Source of the DNA: Citrus sinensis
Lineage: Eukaryota > Streptophyta > Magnoliopsida > Sapindales > Rutaceae
Assembly: GCF_022201045.2 (NCBI RefSeq)
Contig: NC_068560.1
Span: 36,543,001 to 36,607,000, forward strand
Reading direction: 5' to 3'
Length of the DNA: 64,000 nucleotides
Shown here piece after piece: positions 29,144 through 62,300 of this stretch; positions within the stretch are counted from its first letter, which is position 1, and every line of letters begins with the position of its first letter. Made by a program: the position numbers and the translations under genes. The notes beneath the pieces are model-generated. The model was not told the origin of the DNA. It did not search any database and saw only the letters and a program-made list of their open reading frames with translations.

Positions 29144-31111
29144 TCAATTGCTATCGTCAACAACTTGATTGTTTACATATAGACTTCTTTTAGGGAAGCC
29201 TGCAGATTCTAGTGTTGAGCCCCTAAACTTTAGCTCAGAAGCTGATCTAAAATTGGGATCAACTGGAGGCCTGGCATTGGTATCAGCAGAACCTGGCCTG
29301 AAGGAACTTGTTGTTCCACCAGGATATCGTGAAGGAGAGGCATATCTCCTTGATGGTCCCCTCATACCACCACTCCTCAAGTCCATAATATCAGCATTTC
29401 TTGAAGAAGAGTCCACAAAAGGCCTTTCTCCAGCACCCGACCCTATTGGAGCCCCAGTTGCAGCAGTTGTCGAGCTAAAAGGGTCATCTGGTCCCCATGA
29501 AGTAAGTGCTTCTTTTTTCTTAGCAAAGAAATGCCATACTCCAAACAAAAAAAGTATAAAGAAGAACACAGGGCCGGTCCATGACATCACACTCGATTCT
29601 CCTTTGAAAACCGGAAGGTTAGAGCGGTACATTCCCACATACCCACCACCAAGACCAAGAACAAGAAGCTTATCACGGTCACTAGCTATCAAGGGAACTG
29701 ACCTTCTTTTCTCGTCATTCACATCCACATCCATTACTTGATAGTTTAGAAATGATGATCTGATCTCATCCAAACCAGCTGAAAAAAGAAGACGAGGCCC
29801 ACCACTCCTCACATAATGCTGAGCAGAAACATTATACACAAAAATCTTCTCTTCACAAACAACAAGCAAATACCCCTTAATTGCCTGAAAAGCGAGAGGC
29901 TCACTCATGTCAAACTTTCTCTTGGATCTAACCCTGCATTTGAAGTTTGTTACATCCCCCAAAAGCAATACATGAATCAAATCCCCCTCCGATGTATACC
30001 CATATGCTTTAGACCTCTCTGTGGCATCAAAAACATAATTCCTAACCAGAGAATTATTCAATCCTTCACATTCAGTTTCCCTGAGTTTCATAGTCCTCAA
30101 ATCCAATGAACCTGCACCACATTCCGTCAGAAACAAAAGCCTCTGCTTCAAGAAAACAAGTGGCTTACTACTCAGCATAGCAGCAGTACCATGGACCATC
30201 CCATTTTCTTTAAAAACCCTAATCTTCCCACTAGCATCTGCTGATAATATATACCTCATCCTCCCAATATGATGTACTTCCAACAAAGTAACAGACAAAC
30301 CCTCTTCACCATTCTCAGTTGCCACATATTTACCAACATTTTCAATTACAAGTGAACTCCAATCTTCCCCATTTGGCTTCTCATAAACCTTATGAATCAA
30401 GATCACACCATTTTCATGCCCCGTGACCAGAACACTCTCATTCTTATAAACCGACACATAAGAAACCATTGCAGTAACAGGCAACTCAGACATAGTATAA
30501 AACTCAACCGAAACATCCCCATTTCTCAAAAACACAAAAACCCTCCCTTTATCATCACCTACAGCAACATATTTACTATGACCCTCATAATCACGAAAAG
30601 GCAATATGTTAATACAAGTGGGATCAGATTCCAGTTTCACAGCTGAAACAAACTGAAATCTCTCGGACCAAAATGGACTGTACTTAGTTACAGAAACCGA
30701 TCTCGCTCTCTCTCCATCTCGAATCATATCCTCTTCTTTAAATTCTTTGATTAATTTTTCGTCATCATACTTTCTTCGCTTAATCTTATCTTTTTCTTCA
30801 AGAGCTATTCTTAAACTCCCAAGATTCCGCTTCTCATCAAGAGATGAAACTTTTGAAGTCTCAGAAAATTTAGATTCTAATTTAGTAACTATATCACTAA
30901 GGTTTCTCACTAACTCTTCAAGTTTATGCAATAACAAATCTTGTTGGCCAAACTTAACTTCACCTTCACTTTCAGTCTCTGATGGTTCATAGTAAGGAAC
31001 ACGGTCGTGCTCGGGTTGGATTGAACTGACAAGGATTTTATCATTAGGTGAAAAAGCGAAAATAAAAAGCAAATAGAGCAAAAAGAACTTGCCTTTATGG
31101 AAATTTGCCAT
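29144..31111 (-). CDS. At1g75140-type membrane protein, single exon
   Basis: One uninterrupted 655-aa reading frame starts MANFHKGKFFLLYLLFIFAF, a clear signal peptide or anchor. It is followed by an acidic stretch and a coiled-coil-like segment (about residues 55-120). The middle (about 130-520) has beta-propeller-like repeats such as FRDYEGHSKYVAVGDDKGRV, typical of WD40-like folds. A single membrane helix lies near residue 540 (GPVFFFILFLFGVWHFFAKK), followed by a basic, Ser/Gly/Pro-rich tail. I recognise it as the family of the uncharacterised Arabidopsis membrane protein At1g75140. The layout suggests a lumenal or extracellular propeller with a short cytosolic tail. The molecular role is unknown. 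Confidence 0.88.
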   Translation of the reverse strand: MANFHKGKFFLLYLLFIFAFSPNDKILVSSIQPEHDRVPYYEPSETESEGEVKFGQQDLLLHKLEELVRNLSDIVTKLESKFSETSKVSSLDEKRNLGSLRIALEEKDKIKRRKYDDEKLIKEFKEEDMIRDGERARSVSVTKYSPFWSERFQFVSAVKLESDPTCINILPFRDYEGHSKYVAVGDDKGRVFVFLRNGDVSVEFYTMSELPVTAMVSYVSVYKNESVLVTGHENGVILIHKVYEKPNGEDWSSLVIENVGKYVATENGEEGLSVTLLEVHHIGRMRYILSADASGKIRVFKENGMVHGTAAMLSSKPLVFLKQRLLFLTECGAGSLDLRTMKLRETECEGLNNSLVRNYVFDATERSKAYGYTSEGDLIHVLLLGDVTNFKCRVRSKRKFDMSEPLAFQAIKGYLLVVCEEKIFVYNVSAQHYVRSGGPRLLFSAGLDEIRSSFLNYQVMDVDVNDEKRRSVPLIASDRDKLLVLGLGGGYVGMYRSNLPVFKGESSVMSWTGPVFFFILFLFGVWHFFAKKKEALTSWGPDDPFSSTTAATGAPIGSGAGERPFVDSSSRNADIMDLRSGGMRGPSRRYASPSRYPGGTTSSFRPGSADTNARPPVDPNFRSASELKFRGSTLESAGFPKRSLYVNNQVVDDSN

Positions 31112-47223: not shown

Positions 47224-48721
47224 ATGAGGAAACTGTGCCCAAATTACGACAGAGAAGATGGGCTGGACACCGTCCTGGAGGTGCCAATACCTGAAGAAAT
47301 GTTCAACAAGATGGGGAGCACTGCAGCTTTACGTTGGCACAATTTGCGTGCATTGATGAAAGCTCAATCCCAATCTTGTGATAGGTCTTCATTCCTCCAG
47401 GCTAAATCAAGCAATGAGTTTATGGCATTGCTCAAACTTGTTGGTTCCCCTCTTATCTCTTTTCAGTTGCAATTGGACAACCCACCTAGCCGCTTCGTTA
47501 AAAATGCTAGCATTGTAAGTTCACGATCATATATAATTAATATTCTGTTTTTGTCTTCAACTCTTATATTAAACTCAAATGATAATGGATGCGGCTGCTA
47601 TATGTATGTGTTAACTTAATTAATTGTATAAGCAGGAGGCTTCTACGGCGAAATATATAGTGCAACAATATATAGCGGCAACAGGAGGACAGGCAGCGTT
47701 AAATTGGGTGAATAGCATGTATGCAGTTGGGGAGGTGAAGATGCTTGGGTCAGAAATGCAACAGGGTGATGATAGTGTGTCTGCAAAAGGGAATTGTGAG
47801 GCTGGTGGGTTTGTGCTGTGGCAAAAGAATCCTGACCTTTGGTGCCTTGAACTTGTTGTTGCTGGTTTTAAGATCTGTGCAGGAAGCAATGGCAAGGTTG
47901 CCTGGAATCAGTCCTCCTCTCAACCCAATGTTGCTCACAGAGGCCCGCCACGTCCCCTGCGCCGCTTCTTCCAGGTGTGTGCGTGTGCCTGTTATATTGT
48001 TGACCTGGGTAGTAGATATCTTAATTCACACTTGCATACCTGAATTGAAGACTCAATTATTCTCATTATTAAATGCTTTGAAATGGACTGCATTAATGCA
48101 TTTCTTTTTTACACGAGCAAGGACAATGTAACACTGTCAAAATCATATCCTTCTGCAATCATCAAATGTGAACATCCTGGTTATTATTCATTGCCTTTAA
48201 TATGCAATTATCAGGGATTGGACCCCAGGTGCATTGCTAGCTTATTCTCAGATGCCGTATGCATTGCAGAGGAAAAAATTGATAATGAGGATTGTTTTGT
48301 GCTAAAAGTTGAGGCTAATGCAGCCACACTCAGAGCACAAAACTCTCCCAACACTGAAGTCGTTCACCACACTATATGGGGTTACTTCAGCCAAAGAACA
48401 GGACTGCTAATTAAATTTGAGGATACAAAGCTAGTGAGGATGAAGAGTGCTAAAGGAACTGACAGTGTGTTTTGGGAAACAAGCATGGCTTCAACGATTG
48501 AAGATTATAGATATGTTGATGCCATTAACGTGGCGCATTGTGGAAAAACTGTTACAACACTTTACAGGTATGGAGGAGCACACAATCATAAGAGGAAAAT
48601 TGAAGAGACCTGGAAAATTGAGGAGGTTGATTACAATATTTGTGGGCTTTCGGTGGAAACATTTTTGCCTCCAGCTGAAGTCAGAAGAGGAAATGATGTT
48701 GGGGAGCAACCTGTGTGCTAA
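47224..48721 (+). CDS. DUF620 family protein
   Basis: Three exons (47224-47514, 47636-47974, 48215-48721) join in frame to 378 aa. The start MRKLCPNYDREDGLDTVLEV is the family start; an in-frame ATG 12 codons upstream adds a Cys-rich piece unlike the family. Conserved blocks include AKYIVQQYIAATGGQAALNW, FVLWQKNPDLWCLELVVAG, RFFQGLDPRCIASLF and VVHHTIWGYFSQRTGLLIKF. DUF620 proteins are plant-specific and soluble-looking. I know no established biochemical function; some database records call them lipase-like without clear support. All conserved parts are present. Confidence 0.93.
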
Positions 48722-50800
48722 ATTCGAGAAAGACCTGCAGGAGAGAAACAAAATTTGCGTGTACATAAATATATATATACGTATAGGAGAATTTGGAAAT
48801 CATTTTTTTCTTTTAGTGGTTGTTGGATTTGGAAACCAGATAGTCAAGTTCGGTTCTCTTTTCAAAAACCATATTTTTGTTTATTTTATGAGAATGAAGA
48901 GAAATTGTTGTTGGGAGCCACTAGCCACTAGCCATTAGCCATTTACTGATTTAGCTTCTTAAACGATTCAAAGATAAAAATAAAAATAACTACGATGATT
49001 TCCCTTGTTTCAATTTTTCCTTTGCCATCAATTTTTTTTTTCATGGAAGAATTATAATGCACTACAGTCATGGAGTTTTTATTTTTATTTTTATTACTAT
49101 TTTAAAAGAAAAGGGAGTATCCAAAGTCTAAATTTATTTTTTAACCTTTATTTCTCCCAATATTTAAACATAGGTGACCAAACAAGTAACGCTGCTAGAA
49201 AACCACACTCCAATGATAGAGTTAATTCGAAGTAATTCTAACATTATGCAGCATTTTAAATAACATTATTCACTGAAATTTGAGCTAAAAAGGTCTTAGT
49301 AAGTTTATATTTATGTGGGACTTGAAATGTCACTCATGGATAATCATCATAAGAATATCTTATTAACTTATATATAAAAAAAAATACAACTAAAACCGTC
49401 ACAAGATAATCATTCAATAAAGTCACGTTGTTTCAATTTTTTTAATTTTATAATTGTTTATCTTTTGTTACCGTCCATTACTATGAAAAACGAATATATA
49501 GGTGGTAAAATTTTATTAAATCAAAATATACGTATGACGTAAAATGTCCATTGCATAGACAACAACCCTTCATCCCTTAATAGATGGTGGTACATAAGTT
49601 TTCATTCAATGATAAACACCATAAAATTATCATTTATAAATAAAAAATCATCTATCACCCAACACATGATAATCGTTTATGTATAATTATGTGATGATTA
49701 GAATAGAAATTATATGTTCTGTGACTTTGTATGGGTAGCGGCCACATATTTCAACATTTTCCCCCCATTTCTTCAATTAGCAAATAGGCTTAGGAGTTGG
49801 GATGCCTTTTAACAAAACAGTTGATATGGTACAACTTTGAGTGTAGTTAGCATTTAGCAACATTCGTACAATGATTAATTGGATCAAAGCATATATCCAA
49901 GAGAACCCCCACCAACAAAAAAAAAAAAAAACCAAAAATAAAATAAAATTGGACTATTGTTCTCCCTTAATAAACCTTTAAAACCCCTTTTCTTTATTTA
50001 CTCTATTTTAATATTTAAAATAATATGAATTTCTCCTAACACCATTATCATGACAGAAATAAAGCTTAATTTAAACTATTCTTCATGAAATATTGGAACC
50101 CCGTAACCCAAGTATTACAATTTTCCTTCTCAAATTCCAAATTGACAGGGTTTTCATTGCTCTTGCTCACAAATTCTTTTTTCTTCTCTTGTCTCTTTTT
50201 TTTTTTTGTTCTTCTTACTCTTTCACTCTTGTTTAAAATACATTTCATTATCATTATCATTATTATTATTTCTAATTTTCAACTCCCGAAGAGAAAAGAC
50301 AATCCTTTGTAAATTACCATTTAAATTTGTTGCTCACCTAAAAATAAGAGAAATAAAACTTTCAATCAAAAGTATAAATATTAGATAATTATTAATTGAC
50401 ATAACCTTACTTAAAACTATGCTAAATTGTTTAATTTCATAAACAGACTACTCTCATCTTTTTGATGGCTCTGCTACTAATTAATGACTTTTGAAATGTA
50501 TTACAAAGATTTCTCTTTCGTGAAATAATTTATTTTAAAGTACTGCAGATATCAATTGCAACTTGCAATTATCGCCAATGAAAACTACAGGAGCAAGAAA
50601 AGAGATAAATAATTGCTTTCAGTAACCTCCAACAAATCAGGTCAGAAATTCGCACTTCCGTGTAATTTTGATGAAGGTTAAGGCTACACAATAATTGGAG
50701 GGTTTTAAAAGGTTTCTATGGGGGTGCCAATAGTCTAACTGAACGAAAAATAAAAGAAGCAAAAAAAAGGGCAGTTAGCTAGTCGTGATTTATTATCCGT
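48722..50800. other. Intergenic region downstream of DUF620
   Basis: This is AT-rich DNA. It starts with the DUF620 3' UTR and includes a CTAGCCACTAGCCATTAGCC minisatellite-like stretch near 48921-48940. No coding or RNA gene is supported before the promoter-like region at 50801. Confidence 0.45.
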
Positions 50801-50968
50801 TGGGCTGTATGGCCCATGGGGAAATTAAAAAACGGCCCATACGTTAAAAAAGAAAAAAAGAAAACCTACTTTATCAATTTAAGAATCCTATGAAAGCTAC
50901 TCGGAAGTCGGAACCCTCATCATGCCTAAAGGCTAAAAGTACTCTCGCGCCTCCTCGCCCTAGGGTTT
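50801..50968 (+). promoter_or_regulatory. Site II plus telo-box promoter of a snoRNA cluster
   Basis: Three site II elements are seen: TGGGCT at 50801, and GGCCCA (TGGGCC on the other strand) at 50811 and 50834. A telo-box, TAGGGTTT, is at 50961. This pair of motifs is the known signature of promoters of plant snoRNA clusters and ribosomal-protein genes. The four C/D-box candidates begin about 280 bp downstream on the plus strand. No TATA box is obvious. Confidence 0.6.
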
Positions 50969-51251
50969 CATTAGTTTTCAATGTTGACGATTCTTCACAT
51001 ATTATTTATTGTAATTTGGAGGGCAAAATAGATTATCTGTTGCATCAGTTTACCCTCTCCTTCATGAATCAGAAATGAACGCTGGAGGAGATAAAACTGA
51101 TGCAGAAATTCAAAGGTTGGCTTACCAGCCCATTGCATGTATCTTTATTTGCCTTGGCGTCAAATGGACCTACCGACACTCTCTTATCTTCGCTCCTTTC
51201 TGATTCTTCTTTTCGTTTTTATAATCTCTTCTATTATACTTGTAATTGTAC

Positions 51252-51325
51252 GGCAAGTGATGAAATTGTTTTATGCTACACTGATAAGCCGTGTAGACAA
51301 CAAACTCCGCTTATTATCTGATGCC
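51252..51325 (+). ncRNA. C/D-box snoRNA, predicted guide to the 5' end of 25S rRNA
   Basis: C box GTGATGA (51257-51263, perfect), D' CTGA (51281-51284) and D CTGA (51318-51321). A 4-bp terminal stem pairs GGCA 51252-51255 with TGCC 51322-51325. The guide just upstream of D (51305-51315) is complementary over 11 nt to AAUAAGCGGAG. As I recall it, that sequence lies about 50 nt from the 5' end of plant 25S rRNA. By the D+5 rule the methylated base would be the U of AAUAA. The D' guide has no target I can name. The length of 74 nt is typical. Confidence 0.72.
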
Positions 51326-51398
51326 ATCTCGTTTTATGATTCTTGATACATTTTTTTTTTTTGGGATTATGCGTTTTTTTTTAAAATTTTTTTGGAGT

Positions 51399-51490
51399 GG
51401 AAGGCAGATGATGTGATAAATAATAATCACTTATACTACACACTGAGTTTAATGAAGACAACAACTCTCTCAAGCTGTCTGATGTCTTCC
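51399..51490 (+). ncRNA. C/D-box snoRNA with two guides to adjacent 25S rRNA stretches
   Basis: An 8-bp terminal stem with one G-U pair joins GGAAGGCA (51399-51406) and TGTCTTCC (51483-51490). C box ATGATGT (51408-51414, one base off consensus), D' CTGA (51443-51446), C'-like ATGAAGA (51452-51458), D CTGA (51479-51482). The D' guide (51427-51441) complements GUGUAG-x-AUAAGUGG of 25S rRNA with one mismatch. The D guide (51466-51474) complements CUUGAGAGG, which directly precedes it in 25S rRNA as I recall it. Both targets are thus in one continuous stretch. Predicted sites by the five-nucleotide rule are a U in GUGUAG and the C of CUUGAG. The rRNA sequence is from memory and should be checked. 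Confidence 0.72.
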
Positions 51491-51594
51491 TATTTGTTGC
51501 AATTTTACTAAGATTTATTTCTTGGTTACTTAGTCAGTAGTTATATATGTTTTTTTTTTTTGCAACTTGGTCTTATTCGAATTATATTGTTGGA

Positions 51595-51698
51595 GTTGCG
51601 TTATTCAATGATGAGAAAAAGCAGACGGGCGGTCTGATACTGATGCCGTGTTGAATGTCTGTAATTTTTCCCAATTGGGATTATTTCTGAGATGCAAC
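51595..51698 (+). ncRNA. U43: U43-type C/D-box snoRNA (18S rRNA guide)
   Basis: C box ATGATGA (51608-51614, perfect), D' CTGA (51634-51637), D CTGA (51687-51690). An outer stem pairs GTTGC 51595-51599 with GCAAC 51694-51698, with unpaired bases between stem and boxes, so the ends are uncertain. The guide upstream of D' (51624-51633, GACGGGCGGT) is complementary over 10 nt to ACCGCCCGUC near the 3' end of 18S rRNA. The fifth base pairs with the C of ACCGC. That is the site served by human U43 and yeast snR70, and human U43 has the same GACGGGCGG guide. Confidence 0.8.
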
Positions 51699-51789
51699 AT
51701 AACCTCTGGTTTTGTATTATAAAATATTCTTATTGATCGATGGCCGTTGATATTTGATTGCTGATTTTTCAACCCAATTCAAATTCTTT

Positions 51790-51867
51790 TGCTATGATGA
51801 AGTTGCTAATCTATATGTCTGGACATATGAGACTCGTCTATGATATGATAATGCATCTTTCTGAGCA
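51790..51867 (+). ncRNA. C/D-box snoRNA candidate, target unknown
   Basis: C box ATGATGA (51794-51800, perfect), a D'-like CTGG (51819-51822), a C'-like TGATATG (51841-51847) and D CTGA (51861-51864). A short stem pairs TGC 51790-51792 with GCA 51865-51867. Size and position continue the series of the three preceding snoRNAs. Neither guide matches an rRNA stretch I can recall. The D' side shares nine bases with U6 snRNA (AGATTAGCA), but not at the distance the methylation rule needs. Confidence 0.5.
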
Positions 51868-54019
51868 CTATCTTTTTAACTTTCTTTTTACTAGTTATGT
51901 TTTTAATGCTACTTGAAACTTTGTTGCTCAAGTTCAGAAGTTTTCTTTCTTTTTGTAGGTTTGTCTTCATTGCCTATGCCATTTAGATTTATTGCTGGTG
52001 GTTATATTGTCAAAAGCATCCATAATGACAATGGGTCTCTTTGTCTGTTAATAGATTGTGTTGTGTAAAGTTGTGTAAAAACATCTTCACAACTGTTAAA
52101 TAGACCAGGTGAATAAAATAATGTTTGTTCATATATATACATGTGTGGTGGTAGCTTCTCTTCAGCTTTGGCCTTGGTGTTTGATGTCAGCATGTCAATT
52201 ACATCAGATTGCTGCACCAGACGAAGTTGTAATGCCTTGTTTCTTCTATAGTGGGATTCCAATTTGAGAATGAAGTTGAATGTGTTTAGGCTGCATTTGA
52301 GGCAGTTGCGCTGCCAAACGCTCCCTTAGATCAGTAGGTTTTGTTATGGATCCTCTCTTATGCGTTAAAAGTTTATTAATCCTATAAAATTAGTTTAATT
52401 GTTAATTATCAATGAGTTGTTAACTCTTTGAATTGTTAAATTTTCAAATCAGCGATATCAGAACTCCTCAAATACTAGGTGGGAAAGTAAAATTAATCCT
52501 TTTTTTTTTCATTTTATGTATGGGACTTTCTAATGTGAAATGAACACTTAAACAGGTTTGTAGACCGACCAATGAGTTTTTAGCCTAGTGGGACAGTCCT
52601 AGCACTCCCTCAAGCAATATGTAAGAGCTTTGGGATTTTGACTGAGTTTGTAAACTCACAATATGTAAGAATGAAGATTCGCGCCTCCATAAAATATTAC
52701 GATGGTTAGTTGCAGTCTATTTTCAATTATTTTATAAGAGAGTGGAGATTATTTTTTCTGATACGAAATATGAGTAGAGTTGATGCCTCTTGATCATTTT
52801 ACTGTAGAGTGCGTGGGAGATACGAGTTCTGCTAATATCAGTAATAGTTCTATATATCAGTATTGGAAAAAAAAAAAAAAAGGGTTCGGAGCTCTAGCCA
52901 ATAGTACAATTGAAAAGTCGAATATGTTGTGTCATCGGTGGTTACCTAGTCTAAGGTATATTAACATTCATTATATTAACATTTATTAAACTAGTTCCCA
53001 ACTAATTGTAATATACATGTATTAGTATTATGAGACCACTTGCTAGAACAATAATGTTTTGGTGAAAACAGTCACATATAATTTTAGAATATTTATGTTT
53101 TATTATTAAAATTTAATAATTGAATATACGGAGGCATACTTGAATCCCTAATATCTAATTACTTCGTAGGGATGAGTTACTATTCAATTACTAATACCCA
53201 ATTAGAAGGTCAAAAGGACAATGGATTTAGCTTTCGACCATGCCCCGGATGCGTAGTTGTAGTATGGCTACTATTTTGAGTGGTGCCATCGGCACCCCCG
53301 AATTAATCTTCTAAAATCCTGACTTATGCAATTACAATAAAGGACATAACTATCTAACCGAACCCATTCCGTTCCTTGTACCCTTCCCCTCGCTCTCTCA
53401 AAACTCTTTACAACTAACACACCCAAACAACCATATCCACATTTCTTTCTCATCGACTCTTTTTTTTGGTAATCTCAACATCGAATGGATTAAAAAATTG
53501 ATTACTGAATTTGGATCTAATAATTTTTTTTAAAATGACAATTATTCTATTGTGTAAAAGTACTGCCATGCAAGTAATTTCTCGCAAACTCAGCTCTCAA
53601 ACATTCAGAAAAATCGAGTCTTGTAAAAAGATTGTTCAGATAAATTAGCAGTTATGAATTCCTTTTAATCTTTATTAAAAAAAATTTAAAAGTCAGATAG
53701 AGCAAATAAGGTTAAGGGTTAAATATTATAGATATTAGTTTTAATCTATAATTTAAAATTATTGGAGATATAAATGATTGGTATTTAAACATTTTTCACC
53801 AAGAAAATTAAGGATAATGGGTAAAAATGGGTAGGAAGTGAGTAGAACACTCCATGATTGAAATCAAGAAAGTTGTGTTTAGTAAAAAAAAATCGTGGAG
53901 CGATAGAAAAAGAAAAATGCTGGGTTTACTTAAAGATAGGGCTTTAAGAGGATTTTAAAATAGCGCCAATAGTACAATTCTATTATTTTAAGTGGGCTCT
54001 TCCAATAATTGAGTGAAAA
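51868..54019. other. Intergenic region after the snoRNA cluster
   Basis: AT-rich with no supported gene. A minus-strand stretch at 52150-52262 reads QLRLVQQSDVIDMLTSN-like peptide and could be a remnant exon, but it has no continuation. A short A15 run lies near 52867. Confidence 0.4.
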
Positions 54020-54029
54020 AAGATTTAAA

Positions 54030-55124
54030 GGATAATTTTTAGGGACCTCTCTTGAGGTTTGGTGTATTAATATAAAGATAGAATGTATTATTGTAATTAC
54101 AGATACCTCTCCTACTCTTAGTATAAAAATACATAGAGCGTTATTATACAAGGATAAATGTGTAAAAACATATTTAAAATTAAAAAAAATTATCCAATCA
54201 ATAAAAATTTTGACCAACTTGCTTTCAAAAAAATAAAAACCCAGCCTTGACCAGCTGGCCGCGGCTCCACCAGCAGCTGGTGGTGGTGCTTTGCCACTGC
54301 CGGAGTACCCTCCTCAGTCCTCACCCTGGCAACCAACCCCATTCACAGCAGCCTCTAAATTAGCTCTGTCCACCACCAAATATTTACCCAAGAGCACGAC
54401 TTTTGTCTCACAACAACTAACACGCCACTGCTGCCCCTTTGGCCATCGCCGACGCCGCCCAACTGCCATTGCCATCACCTTTGAGCCATCGATACCATGC
54501 AGCAACCTCTGAGTCCCAAAACCCAACTGCACGGTCTCTCAAAACCTTTCTCGTGGCTTGTGATGCTAGATACCACTATTGCAAATTCTGCCGCTGGTGA
54601 TGGTTCATATCATCGCTGTCCATCTCCCCAACCTCTCCACAAGCAGCCCCAACCTCAATCTACATGCAACCCCAACCTCAATAACATCTTAACAGCCATG
54701 AACGCACAATTTTTTTTCAACCCGCAATTGCGGCTACTTTCAAGCATCAAACATCAAACATCAACAGCCATTTTCATTTTGAGGCCGTTGATGAAGCTTC
54801 ACTGCCAACAGAATCCTCTTTATACCCAACACACACCATCAAGCATCAACAACCATTTTATTGAAGTGGGTTTTCAAAGATTTTGTCCCTACTCAGACAC
54901 AATCTTTTGTTGACATGGGTTTTCAAAGATGGTTACAAATCGATTTTGTTGATTCTGATGTAGTCTATCATTTTTGCGAGAAGGTTATTTTAGTTATTTT
55001 AAGAGTCCACTAACGGTCAAACTAACTGATAACTAACGGTAAGGGAGGTATATGTAATTACAGTAATACATTTTATCTAGGTGTTAATACACCAAACCTC
55101 AAGGGATGTCCTTAAAAATTACCC
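54030..55124. mobile_element. Non-autonomous Mutator-like element (MULE)
   Basis: The left end starts GGATAATTTTTAGGGACCTC and the reverse complement of the right end starts GGGTAATTTTTAAGGACATC. Similarity continues for about 90 bp through CTTGAGGTTTGGTGTATTAA and TGTAATTACA. The element is flanked by AAGATTTAAA (54020-54029) and AAAATTTAAA (55125-55134), a 10-bp target duplication with one change. Long inverted ends and a 9-10 bp duplication are the hallmarks of Mutator. The centre (54244-54930) is far richer in GC than the ends and has Pro/Gln/Ser-rich open frames, but no transposase. It may carry captured host sequence. Confidence 0.82.
54244..54930. other. GC-rich cargo inside the MULE
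   Basis: The composition changes abruptly at the cargo borders. Open frames exist on both strands (54291-54512 and 54497-54913 plus, 54314-54532 minus). None matches a protein I know, and the sequence is rich in CCA/CAG/CTG triplets and CATCAAACATCAAACATCAA-type short repeats near 54745. It could be a fragment of a host gene or simple-repeat filler. I would not call it a gene. Confidence 0.4.
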
Positions 55125-59300: not shown

Positions 59301-62300
59301 TTTTACATCATTCGAATGCTCAGGCATAGATGCAATACTTTCACAAATTCCGGTAGGTGGTACAAAAGGAAGTTCACAAAACTCTGAAGGTAAAGAGTCC
59401 TCTGTTGCATCGTTTATAGTTTCATTAGCCCTAGGAATGTCTTCAGATGCCTTCTCATCACTTAGAGGAGCATGACCATCAGAAGCAAAGACTGGTTTCT
59501 CTACTAGAGAAGACTCGTGAAGAGATTTGTTCATCACATCTAACGAAGGAAAGCTTTCGCCTTCTATTGGTGCTGCCAACTTGTCCTTAAGATGGATATC
59601 ATCTATCTGTTCTGGACGAGTAGCAGTCCAGCTCTTCTGATGACTAAACACCTGATGTGGGAACTGCACAAAATCAGACCCACTAGAATGGCCTAAATCC
59701 TGAGTCACTTGTGGAGGCAAATTCAGTAGGTCTTTCATACGTTCATCTCGCATCTTTGGAACCGGTATCTGCAAGCCACCCTGTAGCAATTCTTGCGATG
59801 ACTGAAGCCGAGAAGGATCTGCTGGTATGGCTGCCTGTGATGGTGCATAAGACTGCTCATTCAAAAGCTGGTGAGAATGATGTTCTGACAGAACCTGAGA
59901 AAGTAACTGCTGTTGCCGTAGCAACTGTTGCTGCTCGTCCTGTTTCTGTTGCTGCTTAAACAACAAGAGCTGATCCAGCAACAATAGCTGCTGCGCTGGA
60001 ACAGGAGCCTGGGATTGAGCCTGCAATAAGTACTGGTGCTGCTGCAACATATTTAACACTTGTGGGTCTTGAGATAAACTAGAGGAAATTACTTTTTCAG
60101 GCGTTGATAAACCAGCAGCAGGATTATCTATAGTTTGACCTAGTAAATTCACTAAAGAGGTGGGATTCTGTGTTTGCAACCTTTGGTTTTGAATCCCAAA
60201 GGCGGATTGGGGAGGAAAGTTTTGAGTATGATGAATATCAGGTTTATTCTGAATTGGATCCAAGCCACTTTGGGCAGAGAAATTTGGCCAACTAGAAACA
60301 CCACCGTTTATGCTAGAGGCAGACCTGTCAGATAAACCTTGGAGGATGGACATCAATTCAGCACTTTGAGAATGAGGCGGTTGGCGAGAATTGTCAGTCA
60401 CTGAAGATAGGAGTTTCGCATGTGACGTCTGGGAGTCGGAGACTATATCAGACTGTGTAACCATAGGTGCAGCATCTCTTCCTGGCCAAAAAGAATAAGG
60501 ATTGGGTAAAGATCTCTGCCGTTCAAGTGACATTCTCTTCACCAAGAGATATGGGTCATTTGAAATATCTAAACCAGATGGAGGACCACCACTGGGATTA
60601 TTTCCAACATAACCTTGAAAACCTACAAATCAACCACAATCCTCAATTTTTCACTGTAATACAACAACAAATCGCAACGAGAAAAAGTATAGATAACAAA
60701 ATTTCTCCAATTCGGAAAACTTTTCACATTTATCTAGTGAACAACAAAATAGAACTTCTTCAAAAAAGAAAACCAACCTTGAGGAATATTACTCATATTA
60801 CCAGCCATTAATGACTCCAAGAACCTATTTTCAGCTTCCATTGCCAAACTCTCCTTATGCCTTGTCTCATTCCTCATTACATCAAAGCCACTGTAGTTTG
60901 GTCGATTTAATGCATCTGTTTCATTATGTTTTGGCACATTAAATCCAGGTGGTGGCCTGGCCTTAGCTCGTAAATGGGGCATAACATCACCAAGTAACGA
61001 AAATGGTGAGTCATTTGATGCACCAGCAAGGCGGACTAGTAAATCTATACCAAAATACCCAGCCTCAAACCATCCAATAATATCAATCCCTCTAAAAGGA
61101 CCTTGAATTTCACCCTGAGGATCTTTATAGTAAAGTACAAGTTCTTCTGGCGTCAGCTGTGAAATCTTTCTGGCTTCCTGTTCCCTGTCCATAACTATTG
61201 ATGACTGCCTTTTAATAACAGGATCCTCACTGGTCTGCCATTTAGCTTCATCTCTAGAATATAAAGATTTAGGCATATCACCTTCCCATTGCTTAGTAGT
61301 ATCCTTCTGCAGCTGTGACCAGGCCATATCAGGGGATTTTGCTCTAATATCACTTGGAATATCCCTCTGCCCATAAGAGCCTACATAAGAACTTTCTCCA
61401 AGTGATGAGGTTTTCCATGGGGTGCCAGACTGGACGGAATTATTTTCTTGCATGCTTGCTTCTCTGTTGATGGGAACTTCAGGCCTTCGATAAGGAGTGC
61501 TATCTTCTTTAGACACTATAAAAAAACAGTAAATAAATAAATCATACATCATGAAAGAAGAGTACAACTTTAAACAAAAGCCACTTCTATCTAATCTTCA
61601 TGATCCAGTGTTACATGTTAAAATTCTATGCAACAAGAGGTAGGACACAACATCAACTAAGGCTCAACAGCCAAAATAGCATACAAATTAAATCAAAATA
61701 GACAAAGTAATGTAAATAGAACCTACAAGTATTTTTAACAATTCCTCTTTTCCAGAAAATTCAAAGCTCAGGATATGTTAGAAGGCTAAAATCATATAAT
61801 TACACAAAATTCAGTTATTTTTACCAAGGTTTATCAAATTCAAGAATGGCCTGCAAGGCTATAATACAAATCTACACAAAATCTCACTTTCCATGCAATT
61901 CTGTACCTTCAGTTCTAAACTTGTTATCAGTGTGAGACTTTTGATCTTGAATGGTTTCCATCTTTGTGTTAGACACATAATTGTGAGTCTGCCTATCCAG
62001 GGATGAGCCGCCAGAGTAATTTGCATAGCCGCCCTTTAAATTGTCGGAATTTTCGTCTTTGGAATCATCAACTGCAAGCGATAAATCTTCTCTACTGTCT
62101 GCTCAAACAAGTCCATTAAAAAATTAAACAATTTTACACCATAATGAATGGATAAACATAGAGAAATATATCTTTGATAGGAATGACTACCATGTTTGGT
62201 TCGTCTTGATGGAGTAAAATCCACAGAATTCCGACCCACAGATCCATCTTTTGATATTTGAGGCGCACCACTACTTACTATGTCCCCTTTATCAATTCCC

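Follow-up and report, generated by a model that had tools for sequence, protein, structure and literature searches.

The stretch of DNA analyzed here (64 kb, plus strand, positions 36543001-36607000, hereafter the window) contains four box C/D snoRNA units in series, which very probably make up one RNA polymerase II gene with a site II/telo-box promoter, its single transcript being cut into four snoRNAs that each guide one rRNA 2'-O-methylation. A box C/D snoRNA is a stable RNA bound by fibrillarin, NOP56, NOP58 and 15.5K. An earlier, sequence-only reading had noticed the four-snoRNA cluster and interpreted it as a polycistronic C/D snoRNA gene; the observation was confirmed, and the interpretation was supported. 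Genome-wide patterns were run on the 299.7-Mb genome of 11 contigs; the snoR16 match and the promoter motifs mark it as that of a plant. The four units, with their boxes and assigned guides, are the following:

51252-51325, plus strand: snoRNA 1, snoR16; C box 51257-51263, D' box 51281-51284, D box 51318-51321; D guide to 25S Um48, 11 Watson-Crick pairs
51399-51490, plus strand: snoRNA 2, a snoR16 paralog; C box 51408-51414 (one mismatch), D' box 51443-51446, D box 51479-51482; D' guide to 25S Um2456, 13 of 14 positions Watson-Crick
51594-51697, plus strand: snoRNA 3, U43 by its guide; C box 51608-51614, D' box 51634-51637, D box 51687-51690; D' guide to 18S Cm1645, 10 of 10 positions Watson-Crick
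51790-51867, plus strand: snoRNA 4; C box 51794-51800, variant D' box ATGA 51827-51830, D box 51861-51864; D' guide to 18S Cm1219, 11 Watson-Crick pairs

All four plus-strand units, with their C, D' and D boxes and lengths of 74, 92, 104 and 78 nt, were re-found exactly as the sequence-only reading had given them. The first gap of 73 bp was likewise reproduced, whereas the other two, given as 104 and 91 bp, came to 103 and 92 bp by the re-measured coordinates. The D box is CTGA in every unit, and the C box matches RUGAUGA exactly in snoRNAs 1, 3 and 4, that of snoRNA 2 (ATGATGT) having a single mismatch. A terminal stem of at least 4 pairs is found in snoRNAs 1, 2 and 3, reaching 8 bp in snoRNA 2; the stem of snoRNA 4 is short, about 3 pairs by eye, and fails a filter of at least 4 pairs. 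When the boxes were searched mechanically, allowing one mismatch in the C box and requiring a D box at a distance of 45-100 nt and a stem of at least 4 pairs, 16 places on the plus strand and 17 on the minus strand were returned in the whole window; the four plus-strand places in 50700-52900 were snoRNA 1, snoRNA 2 (twice) and snoRNA 3. Requirement of an exact C box left four plus-strand places and one minus-strand place in the window, snoRNAs 1 and 3 among them. Downstream of the cluster, as far as 52900, no further snoRNA was found that combines a D box and a 4-bp stem with a C box of one mismatch or none; since this filter also misses snoRNA 4, similarly weak snoRNAs could escape it there. 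The sequence-only reading had seen no protein frame of note over the region; of 72 stop-to-stop frames of at least 30 amino acids in 50700-54400, the seven scanned around the cluster gave no Pfam match. In the wider window, an exon of a DUF620 protein precedes the cluster on the plus strand (48044-48721; Pfam E 1.6e-74), and an exon of a GYF-domain protein lies on the minus strand (60737-61597; Pfam E 8.8e-13).

Guides complementary to rRNA had been proposed for three of the units. Such guides are indeed present; their number, however, is four, one per snoRNA, each in the D+5 register on a nucleotide that is methylated in Arabidopsis. The agreement with listed sites in all four cases was obtained with Arabidopsis rRNA rather than that of the species itself, since a pair of short rRNA probes, the first exact and the second allowing up to two mismatches, had no match to rDNA anywhere in the genome. 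The Arabidopsis reference was compared without any offset with a published list of 111 methylated positions, and it agreed with the list at 35 of 35 positions in 18S, 68 of 74 in 25S, and both positions in 5.8S rRNA; the six disagreeing 25S positions all fall within 803-1067, and none is near the four targets used. Over all rRNA positions, the best score of snoRNA 1 was that of its D guide on 25S U48 (score 11), and the best of snoRNA 2 was that of its D' guide on 25S U2456 (11.5); the best score of snoRNA 4 was likewise that of its D' guide on 18S C1219 (11, with 11 of 11 positions paired). The D' guide of snoRNA 3 forms ten unbroken Watson-Crick pairs at 18S C1645, and its score of 10.0 is not the highest for this snoRNA: the unlisted positions 18S A1639 (10.5) and 25S A890 (10.4), both reached from the next CTGA, scored above it, as did 18S G715 (10.2), the best position of the D spacer, which is unlisted in Arabidopsis. 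These higher-scoring positions pair with interruptions or wobbles. Possible second targets, namely 18S G802 for the D' spacer of snoRNA 1 (10.2), 18S G715 for the D spacer of snoRNA 3 (10.2) and 18S A794 for the D spacer of snoRNA 4 (8.3), were dropped because they are not on the Arabidopsis list. That list assigns U48 to SnoR16, U2456 to SnoR16.1, C1645 to U43 and C1219 to SnoR166 (PMC8053127). Three of the sites, Um48, Cm1645 and Cm1219, have been mapped in Arabidopsis, tomato and tobacco alike, whereas Um2456 is recorded for the first two species and is not mapped in tobacco; methylation at the equivalents of Cm1645 extends to E. coli, an archaeon, yeast and human as well as plants (PMC11542601).

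The strength of these matches was judged against chance. Between 51201 and 51900, four listed-site matches scored at least 10; among 200 dinucleotide shuffles the mean was 0.095 and none had more than 2, the score threshold of 10 and the admission of ATGA as a box having been chosen after the first guide scoring had been seen. The same scan over the window, which covered 1318 CTGA/ATGA boxes on both strands including the cluster's own, gave 14 further listed-site matches of at least 9 in the rest of the window, 11 of them at least 10; two of those (12.4 and 11.6) outscore every match in the cluster. Thus, a single match means little, and it is the clustering that carries weight.

In the Rfam models, snoRNA 1 was recognized as snoR16 (RF00296) with 65.5 bits and E 3e-9 over model positions 1-86, the gathering cut-off being 45 bits, and this was the only match at a curated cut-off in the 64-kb window. 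The other three snoRNAs stayed below the cut-offs. At lax thresholds, snoRNA 2 matched snoR16 with 31.2 bits (E 0.012), under the cut-off of 45, followed by snoR26 with 24.5; snoRNA 4 had weak C/D matches (snoR1, 28.0 bits; snoR64, 26.7), none reaching a cut-off, and the matches of snoRNA 3 were weaker still (snR56, 19.7). No U43/SNORD43 match to snoRNA 3 appeared in Rfam at E up to 10, Rfam being the sole source through which its homology to U43 beyond the guide was examined. The description of the gene as unmarked is therefore right only in part, since Rfam marks one of the four snoRNAs.

The two first members of the cluster are related to each other. The alignment of snoRNA 1 with snoRNA 2 had a z of 5.9, equaled by none of 300 shuffles; for the remaining five pairs of snoRNAs, z was at most 1.9. 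We call snoRNA 2 a paralog of snoRNA 1 and not a member of the snoR16 family, because its 31.2 bits lie below the cut-off while its z to snoRNA 1 is high. The Rfam consensus of snoR16 contains both guides in register, a D' guide forming 11 bp with U2456 and a D guide forming 11 bp with U48, whereas here each of the two copies has one of them. In snoRNA 1 the U48 guide is perfect over 11 bp, but there is no in-register U2456 guide: the D' spacer is displaced by two bases, the remaining pairing comprising 9 of 10 positions, and the fifth base would consequently face G2458, a position absent from the list. Conversely, snoRNA 2 has the U2456 guide, with 13 of 14 positions paired, and is without the U48 guide. 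The neighboring snoR16 copies seem to have divided between them the two guide tasks of the parent. We infer that a snoR16 with both guides was duplicated in tandem and that the copies then underwent reciprocal loss, each of one guide, although the two may also be older or have arisen separately. The D spacer of snoRNA 2 additionally has a run of 8 pairs with 25S rRNA 2445-2452, adjoining the primary duplex. This run was equaled by 119 of 5000 shuffled spacers and by 3.2% of 61-nt rRNA windows; since a run as good occurs in 2-3% of controls, and was chosen post hoc, the extra pairing is only suggestive. In Arabidopsis, additional pairing close to the target is frequent, being described for 45 of 104 sites (PMC8053127).

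Relatives of the cluster have been described. snoR16 and U43 occur together in rice cluster 66 (U43a-snoR16) and in Arabidopsis snoR16.1-U43.1 (PMC5122169), and here, too, snoR16 adjoins U43. The same source dates snoR16 to the ancestor of flowering plants and recovers U43a only in BOP grasses by homology search, so that it does not itself demonstrate conservation of the snoR16-U43 pair through dicots. In contrast to the Arabidopsis and rice clusters as described there, the present one has four snoRNAs, with snoR16 doubled and an 18S Cm1219 guide added, although these additions may already be known in the Arabidopsis locus. Arabidopsis SnoR166 is assigned to the same 18S nucleotide, C1219, as snoRNA 4 (PMC8053127). 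Term searches of PMC7464842 and PMC8351944 yielded nothing on this cluster. Scans of public sequence collections returned no viral contig in two runs, no phage and three bacterial contigs, and thus no relative from a plant. With listed targets and previously described snoR16-U43 clusters, this is therefore an ordinary, well-supported plant four-snoRNA gene of a kind that is already known.

Upstream of the cluster, the site II elements and telo-box that the sequence-only reading had reported were found, together with a TATA-like stretch:

50801-50806, 50811-50816 and 50834-50839, plus strand: three site II elements (TGGGCY, both orientations)
50961-50968, minus strand: telo-box AAACCCTA
51000-51011, plus strand: weak TATA-like stretch TATTATTTATTG, not a strong TATA consensus
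51127-51132: fourth site II element, in the leader

Such motifs are published for plant snoRNA genes (PMC4660826), and the TeloSII arrangement, in which the two motifs precede a series of same-strand snoRNAs, is present here. Site II is not enriched over the whole window (31 seen versus 36.9 expected), yet three copies lie within 39 bp at 50801-50839. Telo-boxes number eight in the window versus 2.8 expected by shuffling, and none of 100 shuffles had as many. Two of the seven other telo-boxes, at 30214 and 36445, also have site II within 1 kb, one element each versus four at the cluster; the pair of motifs is thus not specific by itself. Transcription would probably start at about 51030-51040.

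At or just past the start expected from the weak TATA-like stretch sits a stable hairpin:

51040-51105, plus strand: leader hairpin, 66 nt; stems of 11-12, 9 and 3 bp, GAAA loop

Its fold stability had a z of -5.9 and -6.7 in two shuffle tests. When 76-nt tiles were taken every 160 nt, covering about half of the plus strand with 25 shuffles per tile, it was the most extreme of the 400 tiles (z -7.0, the next being -4.6). The spacers between the snoRNAs had fold z values of 0.2, -1.6 and 0.6; without a comparable fold in them, there is no support for a hairpin cut between each pair of snoRNAs. An H/ACA snoRNA at 51040-51180 was considered and rejected, there being no H box ANANNA in 51100-51140 and the sequence past the hairpin having a z of -0.02. 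The leader hairpin may be a candidate RNase III processing site. Most yeast C/D precursors have a capped 5' stem-loop that is cut by the RNase III Rnt1 (PMC5934358); the processing of plant polycistrons, too, is said to be initiated by an Rnt1-like enzyme (PMC4660826). What the locus shares with the yeast precursors is a stable stem-loop close to the start of transcription, in what is expected to be the leader; unlike theirs, the loop is GAAA and not AGNN. Among the papers listed in a literature search on polycistronic snoRNA processing, no plant RNase III cap-removal hairpin of this kind was found.

In the mechanism that we propose, RNA polymerase II would begin transcription just downstream of the site II/telo-box promoter and produce one polycistronic precursor, from which a cut by RNase III at the leader hairpin and trimming by exonucleases would release the four snoRNAs. 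Each would then assemble with fibrillarin and direct 2'-O-methylation of a single rRNA nucleotide, these being 25S Um48 for the D guide of snoRNA 1 and, for the D' guides of snoRNAs 2, 3 and 4, 25S Um2456, 18S Cm1645 and 18S Cm1219, respectively. A more elaborate history, tentative and somewhat short of probable in our view, would join the duplication to the processing: snoR16 was duplicated in tandem within one transcript, copy 1 lost its U2456 guide through the 2-nt shift beside D', in copy 2 the U48 guide was lost and its spacer taken over for binding rRNA next to the remaining target, and the leader serves as the RNase III cap-removal hairpin.

Other explanations of the cluster and its leader need to be weighed. 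One is that the cluster is alive only in part, snoRNAs 1 and 3 being functional while snoRNA 2, snoRNA 4 or both are decaying copies or chance look-alikes. The weaknesses of snoRNA 2 (31.2 against 45 bits, the mismatch in the C box, absence of the Um48 guide) and of snoRNA 4 (no Rfam cut-off reached, the ATGA D' box, a stem of fewer than 4 pairs) would fit this; nonetheless, both have guides exactly in register with a listed nucleotide, with pairs at 13 of 14 positions in the former and at all 11 in the latter, the terminal stem of snoRNA 2 is 8 bp, and snoRNA 2 retains precisely the guide that is missing from its neighbor, which is unexpected under random decay, so that we consider partial activity unlikely. 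Residence of the cluster within the intron of a host gene is very unlikely. A pyrimidine-rich stretch ending in TTTTTGTAG (51950-51958), downstream of snoRNA 4, could be a 3' splice site, and an ATG frame runs from 51075 ahead of the snoRNAs, but seven frames around the cluster are without Pfam matches and the promoter motifs lie directly upstream of it; clusters with their own promoter are, moreover, described as the common plant form (PMC4660826, PMC8053127).

The leader hairpin could alternatively be a microRNA precursor, so that the locus would join a snoRNA and a miRNA in one gene, as Arabidopsis sno-miR775 and sno-miR779 do. This is the less likely identity for the hairpin, and we give it little credence. 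Its fold, the most extreme among the sampled plus-strand tiles, would suit a precursor, but with about 24 pairs in total it is too short for the approximately 15-bp basal stem plus 21-nt duplex that base-to-loop cutting by DCL1 needs, though processing from loop to base could still occur. An Rfam miRNA match on the hairpin strand reached 21.1 bits against a cut-off of 70, and no second copy of the hairpin was found in the genome. Dicistronic snoRNA-miRNA genes are indeed published, but in sno-miR775 the miRNA is downstream of the snoRNA (PMC4660826).

One exact genomic copy was found for the pattern of the U43 guide with its D' box and for that of the U48 guide, whereas the U2456 pattern (at most one mismatch) and the C1219 pattern (exact) had two matches each. 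The second U2456 and C1219 matches lack a C box of at most one mismatch in the 90 nt upstream, and were therefore left out of the copy counts. At exact or one-mismatch stringency there is thus one credible genomic copy per guide, and more changed copies would be missed. A genome search with the snoR16 model, in which 86 of 25,587 first-look candidates were scored, returned snoRNA 1 only; since it missed snoRNA 2, it could miss other diverged copies as well.

A protein-centered annotation would overlook this cluster, and Rfam at its cut-offs detects only one of its four snoRNAs. At the stringency just given, the locus is the sole credible copy found of the guides for four rRNA methylations, Cm1645 included; if the guides are single-copy, loss of one gene should remove four rRNA marks together. 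Finally, the divided snoR16 pair offers a simple case in which the sharing of tasks by multi-guide RNAs can be tested.
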